The notes under the pieces: model-generated
What the model was told of the DNA's origin: nothing
Seen by the model: only the letters and a program-made list of their open reading frames with translations
Databases searched by the model: none
Shown here: positions 5,295-51,180 of the stretch, one piece after another
How positions within the stretch are numbered: the first letter of the stretch is position 1
Layout: each line of letters begins with the position of its first letter
Program-made: the position numbers and the translations under genes
NCBI GenBank assembly: GCA_024279275.1
Contig: JAJRRS010000136.1
Location: forward strand, 1-64,000
Direction: 5' to 3'
DNA length: 64,000 nt
DNA from: Planctomycetota bacterium
Lineage (GTDB): Bacteria > Planctomycetota > Phycisphaerae > Phycisphaerales > Phycisphaeraceae

Positions 5295-5368
5295 GTTTAG
5301 CGGCGGATCGCAGATCCGCGTGTCGGTCTCACGAGCCACACCCGGCGATTTGCGATCGCCCGCTAAAC
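5295..5368. repeat. REP-like bipartite inverted element (family A)
   Basis: GTTTAGCGGCGGATCGCAGATCCGC...GGCGATTTGCGATCGCCCGCTAAAC; ends are inverted, each with an internal hairpin; related copies at 24763-24845 and 21537-21563. Confidence 0.75.
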
Positions 5369-18897: not shown

Positions 18898-19040
18898 AAG
18901 AAGAAGAAACACAGAGGCACAGAGACACAGAGAAGACGGGGAGAGTTGGAACAGGCATGAACGCGGATAAGAATGTTTGGTTTGTGAGTTCGCGGAGCGG
19001 TGAGCATCTGCGTTTATCTGCGTTTGTCTCTGTTTCAAGA
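18898..19040. repeat. CACAGAGR repeat copy between dnaJ and grpE
   Basis: AAACACAGAGGCACAGAGACACAGAGAAGACGGGGAGA and GAACGCGGATAAG ... CATCTGCGTTTATCTGCGTTTGTCTCTGTTTC. Confidence 0.7.
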
Positions 19041-19096
19041 GTTTTGCCTGTGCTTCTGCGATTCAACCCGTTACACCCGAGCCGACGAGGGCTGAC

Positions 19097-19681
19097 ATGA
19101 ATGAGCATGATGAGAAGATCGACGATGTGAATGAGCCAAGCGAGTCCGAGTTGGATGAGGCTGCTGATGCGTTGGCGTTTCCCGGGATGGATGAGTCTGA
19201 TGAAGATGGGGGGCTGGCTGCCGAAGATGTCGATCCGTTGACGGCGATGCGGGGTGAGCGTGATGCGTTGGAGGACAAGCTCAAGCGGATGATGGCGGAT
19301 TACCAGAACCTTGCCCGGCGGGCGAAGCAGAACGAGGTTGCGGCGCGGCAGTATCAGTTGATCGAGGTTGCCAAGCAACTGGTCCCGGTGCTGGACCACT
19401 TCGACAGCGCGTTGGGTGTGGATGCTGAGACGTCTTCGGTTGAAGATTTGCTTAAGGGCGTGAACATCGTGCGTGATGAGTTGATGCGGTCGCTGGCGTC
19501 GTTTGGTGTGCAGCGGCTGGACGTGGCGGTGGGTGAGGTGTTTGATCCGAATCGTCACGAGGCGTTGATGCGTCAGGCGGATACGGACATTGAGCCGAAC
19601 CATGTGACGGCACAGTTGCAGCCGGGGTATTTGTTGAATGATGTGACAATTCGGGCGGCGAAGGTGAGTATTGCGGAGTGA
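19097..19681 (+). CDS. grpE: nucleotide exchange factor GrpE
   Basis: KRMMADYQNLARRAKQNE..., VLDHFDSAL, FDPNRHEALMRQ...; follows dnaJ. Confidence 0.92.
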   Translation: MNEHDEKIDDVNEPSESELDEAADALAFPGMDESDEDGGLAAEDVDPLTAMRGERDALEDKLKRMMADYQNLARRAKQNEVAARQYQLIEVAKQLVPVLDHFDSALGVDAETSSVEDLLKGVNIVRDELMRSLASFGVQRLDVAVGEVFDPNRHEALMRQADTDIEPNHVTAQLQPGYLLNDVTIRAAKVSIAE

Positions 19682-21536: not shown

Positions 21537-21563
21537 CGCGGATCTATGATCCGCCGCTAAACG
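21537..21563. repeat. REP-like half element (family A)
   Basis: CGCGGATCTATGATCCGCCGCTAAACG; rc matches the left half of the 5295 element. Confidence 0.7.
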
Positions 21564-24710: not shown

Positions 24711-24762
24711 GCATAAACTGGATGCGAACCATCGAATAGCTATAAAAAACGTGGCGTTCCCT

Positions 24763-24845
24763 TTTAGCAGCGGATCGCAGATCCGCGTGTTGTGGTGATG
24801 TGTGGTCGGAAGGCCGACACGGCGATCTTCGATCGCCCGCTAAAC
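24763..24845. repeat. REP-like bipartite inverted element (family A)
   Basis: TTTAGCAGCGGATCGCAGATCCGCGTGT ... ACACGGCGATCTTCGATCGCCCGCTAAAC. Confidence 0.75.
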
Positions 24846-29109: not shown

Positions 29110-30318
29110 ATGATTTTTGATATGCAAGAACCGCAACGAAGCCGTGTCGAGTCTGAAACCGATACCCCCCCACTGCCGTTGTTGGCGGTGCGTGGCGCGA
29201 TTGGGGGAGTGTTGATGGGGTTGGCGAATTTGGTGCCGGGGATCAGCGGGGGGACGATGCTGCTGGCGGCGGGGGTTTATCCGAGGTTTATCAATGCGAT
29301 CGGTGAAGTGACGACGTTGAAGTTCCGCAAGGCTTCGTTGTTGTTGCTTGGGTCGGTGGTGTTGTCGGCGTTGGTGGCGATCGTGCTGCTGGCTGGGCCG
29401 GTGAAGGATTTGGTGGTGGATCATCGTTGGGTGATGTACAGCTTGTTTATTGGATTGACGCTTGGGGGTGTGCCGGTGGTTTGGCGGTTGATCGCCGCGC
29501 CTGGGAATATGGAGACTTCGTTAAAGACTCGTGGCGATGGCCAGGCTGATCCCCCGGCAGAGCCGGGGGCTGAGGGGGAGACAGTTGCCGTTGAATCTGA
29601 TGGGACGCGGGTTGGTGTCGATTGCGGGGGCGCTGGGACTCCGGGGGCGGGGGCGGGGGTGGATGTGTGGGTGTCTGCGGTGTGTGGGTTTATTGCGATG
29701 AGCGCGTTGGCGTATTTTCAGATGCGTGGGGGTGGTGGTGCTGAGCGTGCGGGGTTTATGATGATGTTGTTTGCGGGGGTTGCGGGGGCGAGTGCGATGA
29801 TATTGCCTGGGGTCAGTGGTGGGTATTTGTTGTTGGTGTTGGGTGTGTATGTGCCGATCTTAAACGGGATATCATTGGCGAAGGATGCGGCGAAGGCGGG
29901 GGATGTTGGCGCGTTGATGGAGCCGTTGCTGGGGGTGGTTTTGCCGGTGGGGATTGGTGTGGTGATCGGTGTGGTGGTGGTGAGTAATGTGTTACGGCTG
30001 TTGTTGAGGCGGTACGAGAAGCCCACGCTTGGTGTGTTGTTGGGGCTGTTGCTGGGAGCGGTGGTTGGGCTTTGGCCTTTCCAGCAGGGAGTTGAGCCGG
30101 AGGTCGGGACGATACTCAAGGGGCAGATGGTCGCGGTCGATGATGCAGGGGGGTTGGTGTTTGAGAGTTCAGGTAAGCCGGTGGAGGCGGACGATTACGA
30201 GGCCAGGGTTTTTTATCCGGCTACGGTGCAGGTGATGGCGTCGGCGGGGTTGGTGGTTGTTGGTTTTTTGATTACGTTGGGGGTGGATCGTGTGGGTGGG
30301 GGCAAGGGTGCTGGGTGA
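29110..30318 (+). CDS. DUF368 domain membrane protein
   Basis: GVLMGLANLVPGISGGTMLLAAGVYPRFINAIG; MILPGVSGGYLLLVLGVY. Confidence 0.85.
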   Translation: MIFDMQEPQRSRVESETDTPPLPLLAVRGAIGGVLMGLANLVPGISGGTMLLAAGVYPRFINAIGEVTTLKFRKASLLLLGSVVLSALVAIVLLAGPVKDLVVDHRWVMYSLFIGLTLGGVPVVWRLIAAPGNMETSLKTRGDGQADPPAEPGAEGETVAVESDGTRVGVDCGGAGTPGAGAGVDVWVSAVCGFIAMSALAYFQMRGGGGAERAGFMMMLFAGVAGASAMILPGVSGGYLLLVLGVYVPILNGISLAKDAAKAGDVGALMEPLLGVVLPVGIGVVIGVVVVSNVLRLLLRRYEKPTLGVLLGLLLGAVVGLWPFQQGVEPEVGTILKGQMVAVDDAGGLVFESSGKPVEADDYEARVFYPATVQVMASAGLVVVGFLITLGVDRVGGGKGAG

Positions 30319-30479
30319 GCGGTGGGGAGACGGCGGGCGGAGGTGGTTGATTGTAAAGATAAGCTTGTAGGCTGATTGATACCCAAAGCGTAAAGAAATC
30401 GTGCGTTAACCTGTGACATCGTGCCCACGTTCTGCTGAACATGGGCTTCGCAGAAGCACGAGAATAAAACTGGATTGGT

Positions 30480-30564
30480 ATAATTGTGAAGATGCCCCGC
30501 CTGGATGGTGATTGTAAAGATGCGCGGGCAGGATGGTTGATTGTTCAGAACCCCGCCGGGATGG
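30480..30564. repeat. three degenerate 28-29 bp direct repeats upstream of galE
   Basis: ATAATTGTGAAGATGCCCCGCCTGGATGG / TGATTGTAAAGATGCGCGGGCAGGATGG / TTGATTGTTCAGAACCCCGCCGGGATGG. Confidence 0.7.
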
Positions 30565-43043: not shown

Positions 43044-44666
43044 ATGACCGAATTGCTATCAATGCTCAGTTTGCCCACCTGGATGGACCCTCAGATATTA
43101 CGTTGGCCGGTCACGGGGCTGTACCTCGCGCTGATGATGGTCATCAGTGTGTACGGGCTGCATCGGTACTGGCTGGTGTATCTATATGGAAAGCACCGTC
43201 GGGTGAGGCCCCGGCCGCAGCGGCGGTATGAGCAGTTGCCCCGGGTCACGGTGCAGTTGCCGATCTATAATGAAGGTGCGGTGATACATCGGATCATCGA
43301 CGCGGCTTGTGCGATCGAATACCCCGCAGATCGTTTTCAGGTACAGGTGGTGGACGACTCGACCGATAGCTCAGCCAAGCTGGCCAAGCAGCGTGTGGCG
43401 TATTGGGCAAAACGGGGGGTTGATATCCAGTACCTGCACCGCAAGGATCGCACCGGGTACAAGGCCGGGGCACTCCAGGATGCCACCTCATCGGCGACCG
43501 GCGAATTGATCGCGATCTTCGACGCGGACTTCATCCCCCCACCGTCCTTCCTTAAGCGCACGGTCCATTACTTCACCGACCCAAGCCTGGGGATGGTGCA
43601 GACACGCTGGTCGCACATCAATAGAAACGACTCGATCCTCACCCGAGGCCAGGCGATCTTCCTGGACGGGCACTTCGTGATTGAACACACCGCGCGGAAC
43701 CGCTCGGGCGCATGGATCAACTTCAACGGCACGGCTGGGCTGTGGCGGCGCGAGGCGATCCAGTCCGCGGGCGGCTGGCAGCACGACACACTCACAGAAG
43801 ATGTCGATCTATCGTACAGGGCGCAGTTGGCGGGCTGGCAGTTTTTGTTTTTGCCTTGGGTGCAGTGTCCCGCGGAGTTGCCGCCTGAGATTAACTCTTT
43901 TAAGAGCCAGCAACACCGGTGGACCAAGGGGTCGATACAGACGGCGATCAAGCTGCTGCCGACGGTGATGCGTGCGAACGTGCCTTGGAAGGTGAAGATC
44001 GAGGCGTTCTTCCACCTGACCAGCCCGATGGTGTATCTATATATCACACTCTTCGCGGCGTTGTTCTACCCGGCGATCTCGATGAACATCAAGCCGTTCG
44101 GGCAAGGCTCATGGTTCGCGGTCGCGGCGGGGATGAGTCTGTTTGGCTTGGGCACGATCTCGGCGACGATCTTTTATGTCACAAGCCAACGGGCGCAGAA
44201 ACGCAGCGGGCTATTAACGATAGCGCAGGTCCCGGTGCTGATGGCGATCGGTATCGGGATCGCGTTGAACAATGCGATCGCGTGCATCGAGGCGTTGCTC
44301 GGGCACGAAAGCCCGTTTATCCGTACACCGAAGTACAATACGACTTTGGATCGTGCTGAGTTGCCGGGCGTGACGGGGGAGGTTTCGGATCAGGTTGAAG
44401 CGGACAAGCCGGGTAAAACTAAAAATAGAATCGCGCGGGTGATCCCGATCCCTTCGATGAAGCGGTCGATTTGTCTGCTTGAGTTGGGGATGGGTCTCTA
44501 CATGCTGGTATGTGTGTGGCTGTCGCTGACTTCGCATCACCGGGCGATCAGCGTGCCTTTCCTGCTGCTGTTCGCGTCGGGTTATCTGTATGTCGGCGGG
44601 TCGAGTTTGTGGGTGTATGTGCGGGCATACCTGGAAAGCCGACGGCCACTGCCGCAGACGGCGTAG
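43044..44666 (+). CDS. family 2 glycosyltransferase (cellulose synthase-like)
   Basis: LPIYNEGAVIHRIIDAACAIEYPADRFQVQVVDDSTD; AIFDADFIPPPSFL; TEDVDLSYRAQLAGW; QQHRWTKGSIQ. Confidence 0.92.
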   Translation: MTELLSMLSLPTWMDPQILRWPVTGLYLALMMVISVYGLHRYWLVYLYGKHRRVRPRPQRRYEQLPRVTVQLPIYNEGAVIHRIIDAACAIEYPADRFQVQVVDDSTDSSAKLAKQRVAYWAKRGVDIQYLHRKDRTGYKAGALQDATSSATGELIAIFDADFIPPPSFLKRTVHYFTDPSLGMVQTRWSHINRNDSILTRGQAIFLDGHFVIEHTARNRSGAWINFNGTAGLWRREAIQSAGGWQHDTLTEDVDLSYRAQLAGWQFLFLPWVQCPAELPPEINSFKSQQHRWTKGSIQTAIKLLPTVMRANVPWKVKIEAFFHLTSPMVYLYITLFAALFYPAISMNIKPFGQGSWFAVAAGMSLFGLGTISATIFYVTSQRAQKRSGLLTIAQVPVLMAIGIGIALNNAIACIEALLGHESPFIRTPKYNTTLDRAELPGVTGEVSDQVEADKPGKTKNRIARVIPIPSMKRSICLLELGMGLYMLVCVWLSLTSHHRAISVPFLLLFASGYLYVGGSSLWVYVRAYLESRRPLPQTA

Positions 44667-44735
44667 ACGCCATTTTGCGGTGATCCGGCAGCAACTACCC
44701 AGCTATGGGAGTCGATCTGCCGATACGATACAGCG

Positions 44736-45302
44736 TTAGGCCTGAAATGCTTGCTCGATCCGAACGATGAGCTGGTCAAAATGGTGGCCGTCGATCACGG
44801 GCGTCGCGTCGGTGTCATCAACCGCATCACCGGGTCGTAAGGCCACCCAACTACGGCAGCCGGAGTACTCGGCATGGTTCTTGACGGTGTGCGGGTTTGG
44901 CAATCGGTAGGCGCGGACGGCGACGAGGTAGAGTGGGCGGTCGGGCTTGTAATTGAAACGCATGTCGATCTGTGCGGGCGACCAGCAGTGCAGGTCGTCG
45001 AGTTGATCGAAGGCTTTGCGGGATGGGACGTGCCAAATCTTTTCAGCCATACCCAGGCCTTGGAATGTGATCTCGGCGGGTTCCTGGTCCAGGACGTTGA
45101 CCCTGTCGCGCAGCGCGGGCTTAATCATCTGGGGTTTCTGATGCACATAGGAGGGGTAGAGAAGGAAGCGCGGGTGTTCCAGCTCGAAGACGCCGGGGCC
45201 GGCGGGTTCGTGGATGCCGCCTTTGCGCAGGAGCAGAGACAACTCGCCGGACAACAGCAGATCACAGACGATGGACCATTCTTTTAGGGCGGTGTCGAGC
45301 AT
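44736..45302 (-). CDS. DUF1802-like protein
   Basis: LDTALKEWSIVCDLLLSGELSLLLRKGGIHEPAG..., resembles DUF1802 family. Confidence 0.7.
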   Translation of the reverse strand: MLDTALKEWSIVCDLLLSGELSLLLRKGGIHEPAGPGVFELEHPRFLLYPSYVHQKPQMIKPALRDRVNVLDQEPAEITFQGLGMAEKIWHVPSRKAFDQLDDLHCWSPAQIDMRFNYKPDRPLYLVAVRAYRLPNPHTVKNHAEYSGCRSWVALRPGDAVDDTDATPVIDGHHFDQLIVRIEQAFQA

Positions 45303-45393
45303 GGGGGTCTGGGGGTTGGGGCTGGGGGTTGCTGGGTTGCTGGGTTGCTGGGTTGCATTCTTCCCCGGCCTTACGGCCGAGGCTCGTATGTGT

Positions 45394-47163
45394 TTACATG
45401 CGTTCGACGGTGTTGATGCCTAGTAGTTCCAGGCCTTGCTTGAGTGTGCGGGCGACGAGGTCGCACAGTGTGAGGCGGCTGTCACGTCGGGCGTCGGTAT
45501 CGGCGGCGAGGACAGGGCACTTCTCGTAGAACTTGTGGAATGATGAAGCAAGTTCGTAGAGGTAGGTGCACAGGCGATGGGGTTCGAGGCTGTCGGCGAC
45601 GGATTGGATGATGCGCGGGAGTTGCAGGAGTTGCAAGGCCAAGGCCCGTTCCGCTTCGTGCTCCAACTTGATCGCGTCGGCACCCCCGCCCCCGTCCCCG
45701 CCCCCGGTAAGGGTCGAAGGATCGACTTCACCTTTTCGGAAGATTGAGCGGATGCGGACGTAGGCGTTTTGCAGGTAAGGGGCGGTGTTGCCTTCGAGTG
45801 CGAGCATGCGGTCCCAGTCGAAGACGTAGTCTTTGATGCGGTAGTTAGAAAGGTCGAAGTATTTGACTGCGCCGATGCCGACCACACGGGCGATCTCTTC
45901 ACGCTCTTGAGCATTCAGATCGGGTGCTTTGTCTGCGATGACCTTGCTGGCCCGATCGACAGCCTCGTTCAAGACGTCTGCGAGGCGGACGGTGTCGCCT
46001 TCTCTTGTCTTGAACGGTTTGCCGTCCAAACCCATGATGGTGCCGAAGCCTACATGTACAAGTTCAGCGCCACTGGTCAACCAACCGACATCTGCTGCGA
46101 TCTTAAAAAACTGCCTGAAGTGATCTTTCTGTCTGGAGTCGACGACATAAACAACACGATCGGCCTGCAGGTCTTTGACGCGGTACTGTACCGCTGCGAG
46201 GTCTGTCGCGGGATAACCGAATCCGCCGTCTGCTTTTTTAACCGCCATCGGCAGCGGTTCGCCCTCTTTGTTGAAGAAGCCTTCGACGTAGACAACTTTC
46301 GCCCCTTCACAATCACGGATCAGGCCCGCGTTTTCAATCGCTTCGATAACGCCCGGCAGCCTGTCGTTGTAGAAACTCTCGGGCTTAAGATCGTCGTCGG
46401 TAAGCTTAACGCCCAGGCAGCTAAACACCTGATTCATGTGGCGTATCGACTCGACAATTAATTGTTCCCATATCTTGCGTGCTTGCGGGTCGCCGGACTG
46501 TAGATCAACGACCCGCTTGCGGGCGCGTTCTGCGAAAGCGGGATCGGTGTCGTCCCTGACCTTGGCTTCTTTATAGAGCACGTTTAGGTCACTGATACTT
46601 GTGTCGGTCGAATTGGCCCAGCCGGTTTCGATCAGGTGTTCAAGAAGCAGGCCGAACTGCGTACCCCAATCACCGATATGGTTGTGCCGGGTGACGTGCT
46701 GGCCTTGGAACTCCAGGATACGTGCGATGGCGTCGCCGATGATGGTGGAGCGCAGGTGGCCGATGTGCATTTCTTTGGCGAGGTTGGGGCTGGCGTAGTC
46801 GACCACGACCTTCATCGGCGGATCGGCCACGGCCACACCGAGCCGGTCGGACTTAAACATGGCCGCGAGTTGCGAGGCCAGGAGGTCGGGGTTGAGTGTG
46901 AGGTTGATAAAGCCTGGGCCAGCGACCTGGGCGTCGGTGAGAACGTCGCCGATCGGGAGTTTTTCCTTGATGGCTTCGGCGATATCGCGGGGCTTTTGAT
47001 TCAGGCGTTTGGCGAGGCCCATAGCGAGGTTGGCCTGGTAATCCCCGAACTTGGGGTTGGTGGCCTGGCGCAGGATAGGGTCGGCGTCGGCGAACTCGTT
47101 GCCGAAGGCTTTGGCGACCGCTTCGCTGAGCAGCCTTTCAAGGGTGGTCTGGATATCAGGCAT
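45394..47163 (-). CDS. argS: arginyl-tRNA synthetase
   Basis: VDYASPNLAKEMHIGHLRSTIIGDAIARILEFQGQHVTRHNHIGDWGTQFG; C-terminal LELLGINTVERM. Confidence 0.97.
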   Translation of the reverse strand: MPDIQTTLERLLSEAVAKAFGNEFADADPILRQATNPKFGDYQANLAMGLAKRLNQKPRDIAEAIKEKLPIGDVLTDAQVAGPGFINLTLNPDLLASQLAAMFKSDRLGVAVADPPMKVVVDYASPNLAKEMHIGHLRSTIIGDAIARILEFQGQHVTRHNHIGDWGTQFGLLLEHLIETGWANSTDTSISDLNVLYKEAKVRDDTDPAFAERARKRVVDLQSGDPQARKIWEQLIVESIRHMNQVFSCLGVKLTDDDLKPESFYNDRLPGVIEAIENAGLIRDCEGAKVVYVEGFFNKEGEPLPMAVKKADGGFGYPATDLAAVQYRVKDLQADRVVYVVDSRQKDHFRQFFKIAADVGWLTSGAELVHVGFGTIMGLDGKPFKTREGDTVRLADVLNEAVDRASKVIADKAPDLNAQEREEIARVVGIGAVKYFDLSNYRIKDYVFDWDRMLALEGNTAPYLQNAYVRIRSIFRKGEVDPSTLTGGGDGGGGADAIKLEHEAERALALQLLQLPRIIQSVADSLEPHRLCTYLYELASSFHKFYEKCPVLAADTDARRDSRLTLCDLVARTLKQGLELLGINTVERM

Positions 47164-47214
47164 GGGGGCGATAGGGTCAGCGACCTTGGGTCTGGAGTCA
47201 AATATGGGGCGGTG

Positions 47215-47249
47215 GATTGATGATTTGGGATTGATGATTGGTGATTTCC
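47215..47249. repeat. GATTNNN heptad repeat
   Basis: GATTGAT GATTTGG GATTGAT GATTGGT GATTTCC (five units). Confidence 0.7.
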
Positions 47250-47403
47250 GGAGGGCATGCCCGGGCGGAACTATCGGCGGCCACCGATCGGGGATGTGTC
47301 ACGGATCATAGTGGTCATTGAAAAACCTATCGGATACCCCACCGAAGCGCCGGGGCGGTGCATCAGTGGGCTTTGTTGGGCAGTGTCAGGGCGAGTGTGG
47401 GAA

Positions 47404-47578
47404 TGATACGGATTCCAGTTAATCCCAGCGCGCTTACGAAGCGCACGGTTCACCTGTGTTTAGCCCGGTCGCTTGCGACCGGTACTGGCCGCAAGTGGCC
47501 AGGCTAAGCGAACAATGTTCCTAGAAACCCGGCCCGATCAGCGGTTGAACGCGAGGGGATTAACCTGAATCCGTATGA
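47404..47578. mobile_element. MITE-like element with 23-bp imperfect terminal inverted repeats
   Basis: TGATACGGATTCCAGTTAATCCC vs rc TCATACGGATTCAGGTTAATCCC (20/23); internal hairpins GCGCTT-ACG-AAGCGC, CCGGTCGC-TT-GCGACCGG, CTGGCC-GCAAGT-GGCCAG. Confidence 0.65.
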
Positions 47579-47656
47579 CACGGTAAAAAAATCCCACGGG
47601 AGGTCGCGGGTGCGGCCTAGCGTGGGCATTTGTGGGTTGAATTTATTGCGAGGTTG

Positions 47657-48469
47657 TTAGAGCGCTTCTTGTTGAAGGTCTGCGCCGCGGTGCTGGAGTT
47701 GTGCTTTGAGTCTTGCGAGGATGGAGCTGTGCATCTGGCTGACGCGGGACTCGGAGAGGTCCAGTGTGACGCCGATCTCTTTCATGGTCATCTCTTCGTA
47801 GTAGTAGAGTATGACGATGAGGCGCTCGGCGCGGCTGAGACCTTTGGTGATGAGTTCTTTGAGGTCGCGTTTCTGAACGACCTTGAAGGGGTTGACCTGC
47901 TTGGCGTCTTTGAGGACGTCGATTTCGCGGACGTCTTTGTTGGAGTCTGTCTCGAACCACTTGCGTGAGAGGGAGACGACGCCGACGGCACCGGCGTCTT
48001 TACGAATCTTGGCGTACTCGTCATCATCGACGCCCATCTTTTCGCAAAGTTCGTCGTCGGTGGGTTTGCGTCCCAGTTGCATCTGCAGCGAGCGGCGTGC
48101 TTTTTCGACGATGCTGGATCGGCTGCGGACGAGCCGTGGGACCCAGTCCATGGAGCGAAGCTCATCGAGGATCGCGCCACGGATGCGTGGTGCGCAGTAG
48201 GTCTCGAACTTAACGCCACGATCCAGGTCGAAGGCATCAATGGCATCCATGAGGCCGAAGATGCCGGCGCTCATGAGGTCATCTACATCGACTTCGTCGG
48301 GGAGCTTGGAGTAGATGCGCTCGGCGTTGTACTTGACCAGATGGAGGTAGTTCTCCATAAGCTGGTTGCGTAGCTGCTCCGAGCCGGTTTTTTTGTATTC
48401 GCTCCAGACCTCGAGGATCGGGTTGGGGCCTGGGGGTGCTGTCTTGACTGCTTGCCTGGTTTTCGCCAT
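47657..48469 (-). CDS. fliA: RNA polymerase sigma factor FliA/WhiG family
   Basis: NYLHLVKYNAERIYSKLPDEVDVDDLMSAGIFGLMDAIDAFDLDRGVKFETYCAPRIRGAILDELRSMDWVPRLVRSR. Confidence 0.96.
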   Translation of the reverse strand: MAKTRQAVKTAPPGPNPILEVWSEYKKTGSEQLRNQLMENYLHLVKYNAERIYSKLPDEVDVDDLMSAGIFGLMDAIDAFDLDRGVKFETYCAPRIRGAILDELRSMDWVPRLVRSRSSIVEKARRSLQMQLGRKPTDDELCEKMGVDDDEYAKIRKDAGAVGVVSLSRKWFETDSNKDVREIDVLKDAKQVNPFKVVQKRDLKELITKGLSRAERLIVILYYYEEMTMKEIGVTLDLSESRVSQMHSSILARLKAQLQHRGADLQQEAL

Positions 48470-48550
48470 GGCCTACTCCTTGACCGGCTGAACGCCTGGT
48501 GCGAATCCGTTCGCGGCGTTGAGGATGAATCGAAACGGGTGAGGTAATAA

Positions 48551-48594
48551 AAAACCGTCGTCGCCCCGGGTTACGGGGTTCGTGATGACGACCG
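48551..48594 (-). terminator. Rho-independent terminator
   Basis: Minus strand GTCGTCATCACGAACCCCG-TAAC-CCGGGGCGACGACGGTTTTTTATT. Confidence 0.75.
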
Positions 48595-48609
48595 CGCCTC
48601 TGCGCGGGG

Positions 48610-48879
48610 TTAAGAATCAGGTACGGTGTCGTCGGGTATCGGATGCTGTTGTTTGTAACGGTTGATGTGATCCATGATCGCCCACTGCGCGACGGCGCCG
48701 ACCAGTCGGCCGATGAACCAGCAGATAATCATGACGCAGATGGATCTAAAGAGGATGGTGGTTGTGCTGTTCCCGGCAGCGATACCGACGACGATAGCGG
48801 CGACGAAGCTCAGTAGCGCGAAACAGGTTGCGATGACACGTGCTGGGATAGTTGAGCACTCCTTGCTCGTTGGGGTCAT
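48610..48879 (-). CDS. hypothetical membrane protein
   Basis: 89 aa, two TM segments, between flhG-like and fliA-like genes. Confidence 0.65.
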   Translation of the reverse strand: MTPTSKECSTIPARVIATCFALLSFVAAIVVGIAAGNSTTTILFRSICVMIICWFIGRLVGAVAQWAIMDHINRYKQQHPIPDDTVPDS

Positions 48880-48983
48880 TCCGTTGAGTGAATAATATAA
48901 CGTATCGCGCGCGCCTGTGAAGGGGTAAAAGGGTGAGACGTGAAAAAAATAAAAAACAGTTGATCGGCAAGAACTGCGCGGTG

Positions 48984-49877
48984 CTACCCGACGAGCCAGG
49001 CGGCCATGCGTCTGAGTAGTCCGTGGTCGCGCGGAGTCGAGGCGTGTCGGTCAATACGGTGGGCCAGCCGATGTATGCAGACGCTCGCCGGGCTGGTGGG
49101 GTGTTCGAGGACGAAGGGCTGTCGGCGGCGCACGGCGTATGGGACGCGCGGGTCGGAAAGGATGTGCCCGGCGTAGCGTGGTGAGACGTTCAGGAAACGG
49201 CGACAGACCCCAGTGATGCGGTCGTATACGGCGCGGGCTTCACGCTCGTCGCGAACCATGTTCACTAAGAGTCGGATATCCAGCTCATTGTCGTGGCGAG
49301 AGACGGTTTTGATGACGGCGTAGGCGTCGGTGATGGCGGTGGGTTCGGGTGTGGTGACCACAAGGATTTGATCGGCGGCGACGAGGAACCCCAAGACATT
49401 GGGGCCGACGCCTGCACCGGTGTCGATGAGGATAAGGTCGGCCTGCTCTTCGAGAGAGCGCATTTGGTCCATGAGGCGGGCACGCTCGAACTCACTGAGG
49501 GCGGCCATCTGGGACAGGCCGGAGGCGCCTGCGATCATGCGGAAACCACCTGGCGCATCGACCAGGGCGTCCTCGAGTGAACATCGTCCAGCGACGACGT
49601 GGGAGAGGTTTTTCTGGGGGTTGATATTGCAGATAACGTCTGCATTGGCGGTGCCCAGGTCGGCATCCAGGAGGATGACATCCCGGCCCATCTGGGAGAG
49701 TTGGACGGCGAGATTGACGGAGATGGAGGTCTTCCCGACGCCGCCTTTGCCGCTGGTCACGGCGAGGGTGGTCGCGCGCGGCGAGGTTGGGGCCGACCTG
49801 TCGGCGTGTGTAGGGGCCTGTTGGGCACGGTCTTCGGCGACCAGTTCCCGCAATGCTTCGGCTTGATCAGCTATCAC
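48984..49877 (-). CDS. flhG: MinD/ParA-like ATPase FlhG/FleN
   Basis: TLAVTSGKGGVGKTSISVNLAVQLSQMGRDVILLDADLGTANADV; next to flhF. Confidence 0.93.
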   Translation of the reverse strand: MIADQAEALRELVAEDRAQQAPTHADRSAPTSPRATTLAVTSGKGGVGKTSISVNLAVQLSQMGRDVILLDADLGTANADVICNINPQKNLSHVVAGRCSLEDALVDAPGGFRMIAGASGLSQMAALSEFERARLMDQMRSLEEQADLILIDTGAGVGPNVLGFLVAADQILVVTTPEPTAITDAYAVIKTVSRHDNELDIRLLVNMVRDEREARAVYDRITGVCRRFLNVSPRYAGHILSDPRVPYAVRRRQPFVLEHPTSPASVCIHRLAHRIDRHASTPRDHGLLRRMAAWLVG

Positions 49878-51180
49878 GTCTCTCTCCCACCTCTAATCCG
49901 AGCACGAGTCCGGCCAGGCGGTTTGGGCAGCCTGGTTCGATCTGGTGCGGCACTTCCTGTCCCGTAGTCACATAGCTAAGACGCATGTCGGCCTTGCCAA
50001 GGACGTTCAACAACACCCCAAAGGTAACGGCTTCGTCGAGTTTGGTAAAGATGATCCTGTCGGTACGCACTTGGCTGAACCGCTGAACGGCTTCCATGAG
50101 GACTTTCTGGGAGCAGGTCGAGGAGAGAACCAAGTGGACTTCGTGGGGCTTGGCGGCGTCCAAGAAGGTGGAAAGCTGGGTAAGACGTTGGTCGTCGCGC
50201 TGGCTTCGGCCGGCGGTATCGATGAGGACGACGTCGCAGGCTTTGCAGTTGTCCAAGGCTTTTTGGATCTCGTCGGGGTGGGAGACGACGTGCAGGGGGA
50301 CGCCGATGATGCCGGCGTAGGTGCGAAGTTGATCGACGGCGGCGATGCGGTAGGTGTCGAGTGTGATGAGCGCGACTTTTTTCTTGTGCTTGAGCTTGAA
50401 GGTGGCGGCGAGCTTGGCGATGGTGGTGGTTTTGCCGACGCCGGTGGGGCCGATCAGCGCGATGGTGCGGGGTCGACCGTCTTTGGTGGGTTTGTGTTCG
50501 GAAGCGTCGGCGTCGATGGGCATGTAGCTGGCGAGTTCTTTGCGGACGGCCTTGAAGCAGGCGTCTTCGTCGTGAAGGTCTTCTTCGCTAAGCTGACGGC
50601 GGACCTTATTCACCACTTCGTCGGCCAACTCGCAGGCGACCTCCTGCTGGATCAGCGTGGCGTACTGCTGGCTGAGGGCTTTGGGGAGAGATGAAGGCGC
50701 GGCGTCGGATTTTTGTTGGTGCATCATCTGCGAGACGAGGTGCTTGACGGCACTCATCTCTTCGGCGAGTTGTCTTGCGTCGGGGGCGATCGGTGTGGTG
50801 ACGTAGGCCGGGACCGGCATGATGGCTGTGGCGGCGGCCTGGGTTTGCTGAGTTTTTTCGATCTCGGCTTTGGCGGCGGCGTAGGTTTTGCGGATCAGGT
50901 CGCCGGCGGCGATGTGTTCTTTGGGGTCGGCGTGGGTGATGGTGGGCCGACGTTTGGGCAGTGCGGCGGCTCTTACCGAGGGATTGGCAAGGCGGCGTGC
51001 GCGTCCGACGTCGGCACCTCGACCTGCGGTGACTTCGACAACGGTTTTTGCGCCGATGCCGAGCAATCCCCCTTTTTTATAGCTTCGTGTATGCAACACA
51101 ACCGCGTCAGTACCCAGCTCGCGCTTGACCAATGCCAGCGCCTGGGCCATGGATGGTGCGGTGAAAGTCTTCAGATTCAA
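49867..51180 (-). CDS. flhF: flagellar biosynthesis protein FlhF (SRP-like GTPase)
   Basis: IALIGPTGVGKTTTIAKLAATFKLKHKKKVALITLDTYRIAAVDQLRTYA; VLIDTAGRSQRD. Confidence 0.96.
   Translation of the reverse strand: MNLKTFTAPSMAQALALVKRELGTDAVVLHTRSYKKGGLLGIGAKTVVEVTAGRGADVGRARRLANPSVRAAALPKRRPTITHADPKEHIAAGDLIRKTYAAAKAEIEKTQQTQAAATAIMPVPAYVTTPIAPDARQLAEEMSAVKHLVSQMMHQQKSDAAPSSLPKALSQQYATLIQQEVACELADEVVNKVRRQLSEEDLHDEDACFKAVRKELASYMPIDADASEHKPTKDGRPRTIALIGPTGVGKTTTIAKLAATFKLKHKKKVALITLDTYRIAAVDQLRTYAGIIGVPLHVVSHPDEIQKALDNCKACDVVLIDTAGRSQRDDQRLTQLSTFLDAAKPHEVHLVLSSTCSQKVLMEAVQRFSQVRTDRIIFTKLDEAVTFGVLLNVLGKADMRLSYVTTGQEVPHQIEPGCPNRLAGLVLGLEVGERRDS

Follow-up and report, generated by a model that had tools for sequence, protein, structure and literature searches.

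What is the hairpin-rich segment that separates argS (47163-45394, minus strand; start codon at 47163) from a FliA/WhiG-like sigma-factor gene (48469-47657, minus strand), and what brought it there? A sequence-only reading had taken it for a 175-bp MITE-like element without an ORF, containing three hairpins and perhaps a nested REP-like pair. We find good support for that reading, in which a MITE encloses a REP pair, but the MITE is 169 bp long (47407-47575), bounded by TACGGATTC...GAATCCGTA with TAC...GTA ends. The inverted repeats quoted in that reading are at the places it gave, but their outermost TGA/TCA letters are a target-site duplication and not part of the repeats, which are 20 bp each. 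The MITE is located approximately 240 bp upstream of argS, as the reading had it, and approximately 80 bp past the stop codon of the sigma-factor gene (47657), with a terminator-like hairpin (47593-47610) adjoining it between that stop codon and the MITE. Within the window (the whole 64,000-nucleotide stretch of DNA that was analysed) its features are as follows.

47404-47406, no strand: left copy of the target-site duplication, TGA (on both sides); the family has TNA direct repeats, as does ISAli3.
47407-47575, plus strand: the MITE, 169 bp, TAC...GTA, without an ORF; further copies in the genome and in a congener.
47407-47426, plus strand: left terminal inverted repeat TACGGATTCCAGTTAATCCC, by pattern match; its inner TTAATCCCAGCGCGC is common to the type B IS630 end.
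47430-47444, plus strand: small hairpin GCGCTT-ACG-AAGCGC, read in the sequence; both stem sides changed in sister copies.
47458-47509, plus strand: core, an inverted REP pair (BIME/REPIN), GTTTAGCC...GGCTAAGC; nearly identical between types 1 and 2; occurs without MITE ends at locus L012.
47458-47482, plus strand: REP 1, GTTTAGCC-CGGTCGC-TT-GCGACCG-G; single free copies elsewhere and around a RAYT gene.
47485-47509, minus strand: REP 2, reading GCTTAGCC-TGGCC...GGCCAG on the minus strand; single free copies at L015, L017 and L019.
47556-47575, minus strand: right terminal inverted repeat, by pattern match; covaries with the left repeat between types.
47576-47578, no strand: right copy of the target-site duplication, TGA (on both sides).

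The inverted-repeat pattern (47404-47426 and 47556-47578) has no other match in the window and none in 100 shuffles. All three hairpins claimed for the segment are present, and the MITE strand folds, as DNA, well below chance (minimum free energy -44.4 kcal/mol, z = -5.6). In most sister copies the small hairpin is GCGTTT-ACG-AAACGC, so that both halves of its stem differ from the window copy. No ORF of 80 or more amino acids overlaps the MITE, in agreement with the earlier claim.

A strongly folding segment between two co-oriented genes, beside a terminator-like hairpin, might be a conserved part of the interval between the sigma-factor gene and argS, acting as a regulatory RNA or a terminator, and not mobile at all. 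We located the sigma-factor and argS flanks in four congeners (G001, G002, G003 and G005), and all four retain the genes and lack the MITE. Between the flanks that can be aligned, these congeners have 97-196 bp, compared to approximately 370-470 bp here; G002, for example, has 97 bp where 371 bp are present here. This difference exceeds the 172 bp of the MITE plus its duplication because a repeat upstream of it (approximately 47316-47380) is also missing or unaligned. The intergenic alignment is divergent, so it shows the absence of the MITE but not the exact bases present before insertion. Together with the copies at unrelated loci with duplications, described below, and the lack of any Rfam match at E up to 1 across 44000-51000, the empty site leads us to reject a locus-specific regulatory feature, which we consider very improbable. 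Conservation at this locus in distant relatives, which the sequence-only reading had named as evidence against its own proposal, was thus not seen. A host function is not needed to explain the MITE, though it may have a secondary effect on expression of the sigma-factor or argS mRNA.

The repeat that adjoins the MITE at 47316-47380 (CCACCGAAGCGCCGGGGCGGTGCATCAGTGGG...) is a dispersed one: it matches the genome in at least 25 other places and is also present in congeners. Reading by eye, we saw a different REP-like hairpin in the G002 interval.

We searched for further copies in the bacterium's own genome assembly (3.76 Mb in 200 contigs), sampling the family by pattern searches and fetched regions, so that all counts are lower bounds. 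The sequence-only reading had proposed looking for other copies, for an IS with related ends and for a target-site duplication, and each was found; the other outcome that it had named as counter-evidence, a lone copy without related IS ends, therefore does not apply. Seven full-length copies, including the one in the window, form a group that we call type 1, in which the six others are 89-92% identical to the window's. Four more copies, whole or decayed (L009, L010, L011 and L013), were at first matched only partly and form type 2: their interiors align as homologs of type 1, but their ends are TACCAATCCCATTAAG instead of the TACGGATTCCAGTTAA of type 1. Among congeners, only G005 has full copies (two, 78-79% identical), and no match at E = 1e-8 was found in 45 members of other genera in the family.

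The terminal inverted repeats covary between the types: at alignment columns 4/173, 5/172, 8/169, 18/159 and 23/154 both sides change in three type-2 copies. Because these columns are shared by descent within types, they represent few events, not many. Comparing the two types, we find 95.5% identity in the core (columns 51-104); the corresponding values are 63.1 and 51.9% for the two terminal repeats, and 58.9 and 70.1% for the flanks. The near-identity of the core could be due to gene conversion, to recent exchange or to selection on the hairpin. One copy in the genome, L008, is a hybrid of the two types. In the orientation of the alignment, its left half is 95.0% identical to type 2 and 61.4% to type 1, while its right half is 85.7% identical to type 1 and 58.3% to type 2, with the switch in or near the core. 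Its flanking triplets are unequal (TTA/TGA), which is what recombination between two insertions would produce; where triplets disagree elsewhere in the family, either such recombination or mutation may be responsible.

To characterise the flanking duplication, we scanned fetched regions for paired ends, requiring TA inside both ends but leaving the three flanking bases free, and curated 33 elements by eye. TNA is present on both sides in 26 of the 33, including elements with quite different interiors; the remaining seven are without TNA on one side. The middle base is the same on both sides in 17 of the 26 TNA/TNA elements, compared to 6.9 expected, and differs in nine. Only 3 of 100,000 permutations of the right-hand letters reached 17, so we estimate the significance as P of approximately 3e-5.

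The genome also contains resident IS630-type elements with similar ends, although no complete IS630 copy is present in the assembly and the IS ends are seen at contig breaks only. By eye, we assigned these ends to two types. Type A has a 5' end TACCAATTCCAATAATAACTCGTGCGCG at approximately 12 contig ends and a 3' end TACCAATTCCGATTAAAACTCGTGCG at 10 contig ends, which we attribute to one element because they have a terminal repeat in common and are present in similar numbers; TNA, again read by eye, precedes all type A ends. The type A 3' end encodes SNRVLEGEADIDHACKDSWNRLTPERLKTITATDWLTHEF, whose stop codon falls within the terminal repeat. Searched alone against Pfam, this 40-residue C-terminus has no DDE_3 match; it shares 74% identity, however, with the end of a protein fragment in G016 that does match DDE_3 (58.7 bits) and comes from an IS remnant (L075) truncated by neighbouring sequence, so that only its 3' end is left. 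Type B ends read TACGCCTTCATCTTAATCCCAGCGCGC and have TTAATCCCAGCGCGC in common with the MITE, and two type B C-termini match DDE_3 above the cut-off. Type-2 MITE ends resemble type A over approximately 25 bp. The MITE may therefore derive from IS630, since its ends match IS630 elements in the same genome except at the outermost bases, where TACGGATTC is not identical to the resident TACCAATTC and TACGCCTTC.

The duplication of IS630 is given as TA in the literature (PMC6267812, PMC2229807), but here we see instead a 3-bp TNA outside TAC...GTA. We therefore examined ISAli3, the nearest named relative among the plasmid hits listed, which is annotated as IS630-like and whose transposase is approximately 49% identical to the G016 fragment over approximately 105 amino acids. 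It is present in three copies on Azospirillum lipoferum plasmids, bounded by TACCAGCGG...CCGCTGGTA. Like the MITE it has TAC...GTA ends, and the triplets outside them are TTA/TTA, TGA/TGA and TTA/TTA in the three copies; it differs in being a full autonomous IS with a gene, and in its inner terminal sequence. If TA were the duplication of ISAli3, the matching outer TNA would be left unexplained, so the TNA rule appears to be a property of an ISAli3-like IS630 group. TA duplication is thus not universal in the IS630 family, and we assign the MITE to the ISAli3-like group only.

TNA-type duplications are also reported for the IS1031 and ISL2 groups of IS5, and TA is the usual duplication for IS630. 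On this general ground the mover could belong to another TNA-duplicating family such as those IS5 groups, with the likeness to IS630 incidental. This is improbable: the multi-copy elements of this genome that have such ends code for IS630-type DDE_3 C-termini whose stop codon lies inside the terminal repeat, and ISAli3 itself makes the same TNA duplication. Judging from the ends and duplications, an ISAli3-like IS630 transposase is probably the mover.

The 52-bp core (47458-47509) consists of two inverted REPs, each with a hairpin, which is the structure of a REPIN or BIME. In known systems with RAYTs, two inverted REPs form a larger hairpin, and related REPs flank the RAYT gene (PMC3116915, PMC2817692). 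The pair exists without the MITE: the whole REP pair occurs without MITE ends at L012, and single REPs of either half occur free, also without MITE ends, with a common boundary at the GTTTAGC motif. Contig C149 carries a RAYT gene (19048-19641) that matches Y1_Tnp with 24.3 bits (cut-off 23), and seven REPs of the first kind are present within 10 kb on this contig, three of which (at 18997, 19666 and 19744) flank the gene in opposite orientations. REPs hugging a Y1 transposase gene are the usual RAYT arrangement. By eye, similar REPs also surround a RAYT-like gene in the congener G005 (L073). The suggestion that a REP-like pair is nested in a MITE is thus borne out by the pair at L012 and the single REPs around the RAYT gene. 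REP super-families are marked by a GTAG or CGTC end tag (PMC3733652), but the REP here starts with GTTTAGC; the MITE-borne REP appears to behave as a RAYT-linked REP outside the GTAG and CGTC super-families.

The direction of transfer could be the reverse, with the hairpins having arisen in MITEs and the free REPs being remnants of decayed MITEs, so that nothing was captured from outside. There is a precedent in the QMITE2 of Coxiella, where shortened MITEs resemble REPs (PMC5896051), and many copies of another hairpin of this family (hairpin B, below) keep one or two MITE ends. Against it, the REP family of the core has a RAYT gene to itself, with REPs on either side that point in opposite orientations, similar REPs surround the RAYT-like gene of G005, and free single REPs of both halves lack MITE ends and break off at the common GTTTAGC boundary. 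We consider an origin inside the MITE unlikely; the link to a RAYT gene and the existence of free copies favour capture of the REP without proving it. Automatic counts of free and MITE-borne hairpins are biased, because most loci were fetched for their ends, and may include double counts, so they show only that both classes exist; copies were called free or MITE-borne by eye.

Our main reading, to which we give a probability of roughly 0.87, is that the MITE was mobilised in trans by an ISAli3-like IS630 transposase while carrying a RAYT-type REPIN, and that its copies exchange at the shared core. The DDE transposase of such an insertion sequence would recognise the TAC...GTA ends of the gene-less MITE, insert it at TNA and duplicate those three bases. 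An ancestor of types 1 and 2 would have captured the REP pair once, and the pair would then have spread with the MITE, its core providing a near-identical stretch in which copies can swap halves, as L008 seems to have done. That the MITE has moved is suggested by its copies, duplications and empty sites. Since the family of the REP pair has a Y1 transposase gene (RAYT) of its own, the MITE joins two independent mobile systems.

Ends of this kind are not confined to elements with this REP pair. A short end pattern, ATACSRATYC, has 128 matches in the genome compared to 20 for the reversed control; the matches whose positions we used are on contigs up to C157. Other hairpins, several of them also found free, are carried by some 20 or more additional short elements whose ends are of this kind. 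At least four such hairpins are present in paired elements 92-225 bp long: hairpin B (CCCCCGGC-TTT-GCCGGGGG), hairpin C (CCCACGTTC...GAACGTGGG), hairpin D (GCGGATC-GCA-GATCCGC, preceded by GTTTAGC) and a fourth (CCCGGCGT...ACGCCGGG). Hairpin B is found 36 times in exact form across the genome; reading 18 regions outside known elements, we found MITE ends or remnants of them in about half and none in the rest. Hairpin D is present in the window at 5295-5319, 21538-21562 and 24762-24786, in all three cases without recognised MITE ends. A longer end pattern matches 19 of 51 genomes of the family, with two control matches in total. Most of the elements that we sampled from other genera measure 100-125 bp and have TNA duplications and other interiors.

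Several individual cases were also seen. The window contains a wider-family MITE with hairpin C (30380-30480, minus strand; ends TACCAATCC...GGGTA, triplets TTA/TCA) and a copy of hairpin B (29548-29572) adjoined by a possible MITE remnant, GTTAAAGACTCGTGG. The G005 copies match half of hairpin C at 18 of 22 bases, compared to 16 of 22 for the window copy, which is too weak to serve as evidence that they keep it. Two loci (L119, 356-580; L137, 447-670) appear to hold nested MITEs, the insert having its own AGAGC...GCTCT ends, and at three others (L120, L148 and L125) two MITEs that differ in their hairpins are direct neighbours; L120 and L148, both contig ends, agree in the order of the two. 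In a Phycisphaerae MAG (GZL_ISSM_2_bin.34; L099) we found an element with TCA/TCA flanks, a TACGGATTC end and a CTGAGGTACTCCGAAGGATCT hairpin, which extends the end family further within the class. Two of seven exact-pattern contig matches (L098 and L100) look like chance on reading their sequences.

We advance only tentatively, with the odds against it, the broader view that ISAli3-like MITE ends act in this bacterial family as a general carrier, in which capture of different REPs has happened repeatedly, a DDE transposase has spread them and carriers have exchanged them.

REP-containing MITEs and IS630-driven MITEs are each already known. QMITE2 of Coxiella burnetii, a MITE of 150-190 bp, has a repetitive extragenic palindrome within it, and shorter forms that resemble REPs are present in the same genome (PMC5896051). 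In our search of mainly open-access literature, it was the only close precedent for REP pairs nested in IS630-type MITEs. The two systems are alike in having an internal REP and REP-like forms elsewhere in the genome, but the direct repeats of QMITE2 are 7-11 bp (3-bp TNA here), its REP is GTAG-tagged (a GTTTAGC-led pair here), and here several different hairpins lie within similar ends. RUP of Streptococcus pneumoniae is a 107-bp non-coding repeat with ends that match IS630-Spn1, for which mobilisation in trans by that IS630 was proposed (PMC2229807); it targets TA, and no REP core has been reported for it. MITEPlu5 of Photorhabdus, a short, strongly folding MITE with ends like those of resident IS630-type elements (PMC6267812), differs in its TA duplication, in being a single 123-bp family of 467 copies, and again in that no REP core is reported. 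Unlike the REPINs known with RAYTs, the pair described here resides in a DDE-type MITE, together with which it spreads.

RAYT transposases alone are the usual explanation for REPs. A RAYT-linked REP pair that spread inside an IS630-ended MITE would represent a second route of dispersal for REPs, and its near-identical shared core would let MITE copies with different ends recombine. The elements also point to a 3-bp TNA duplication in an IS630 group that is usually described as duplicating TA. If the carrier reading is true, the dispersal of REPs in this bacterial family would depend partly on IS630 and not only on RAYTs.
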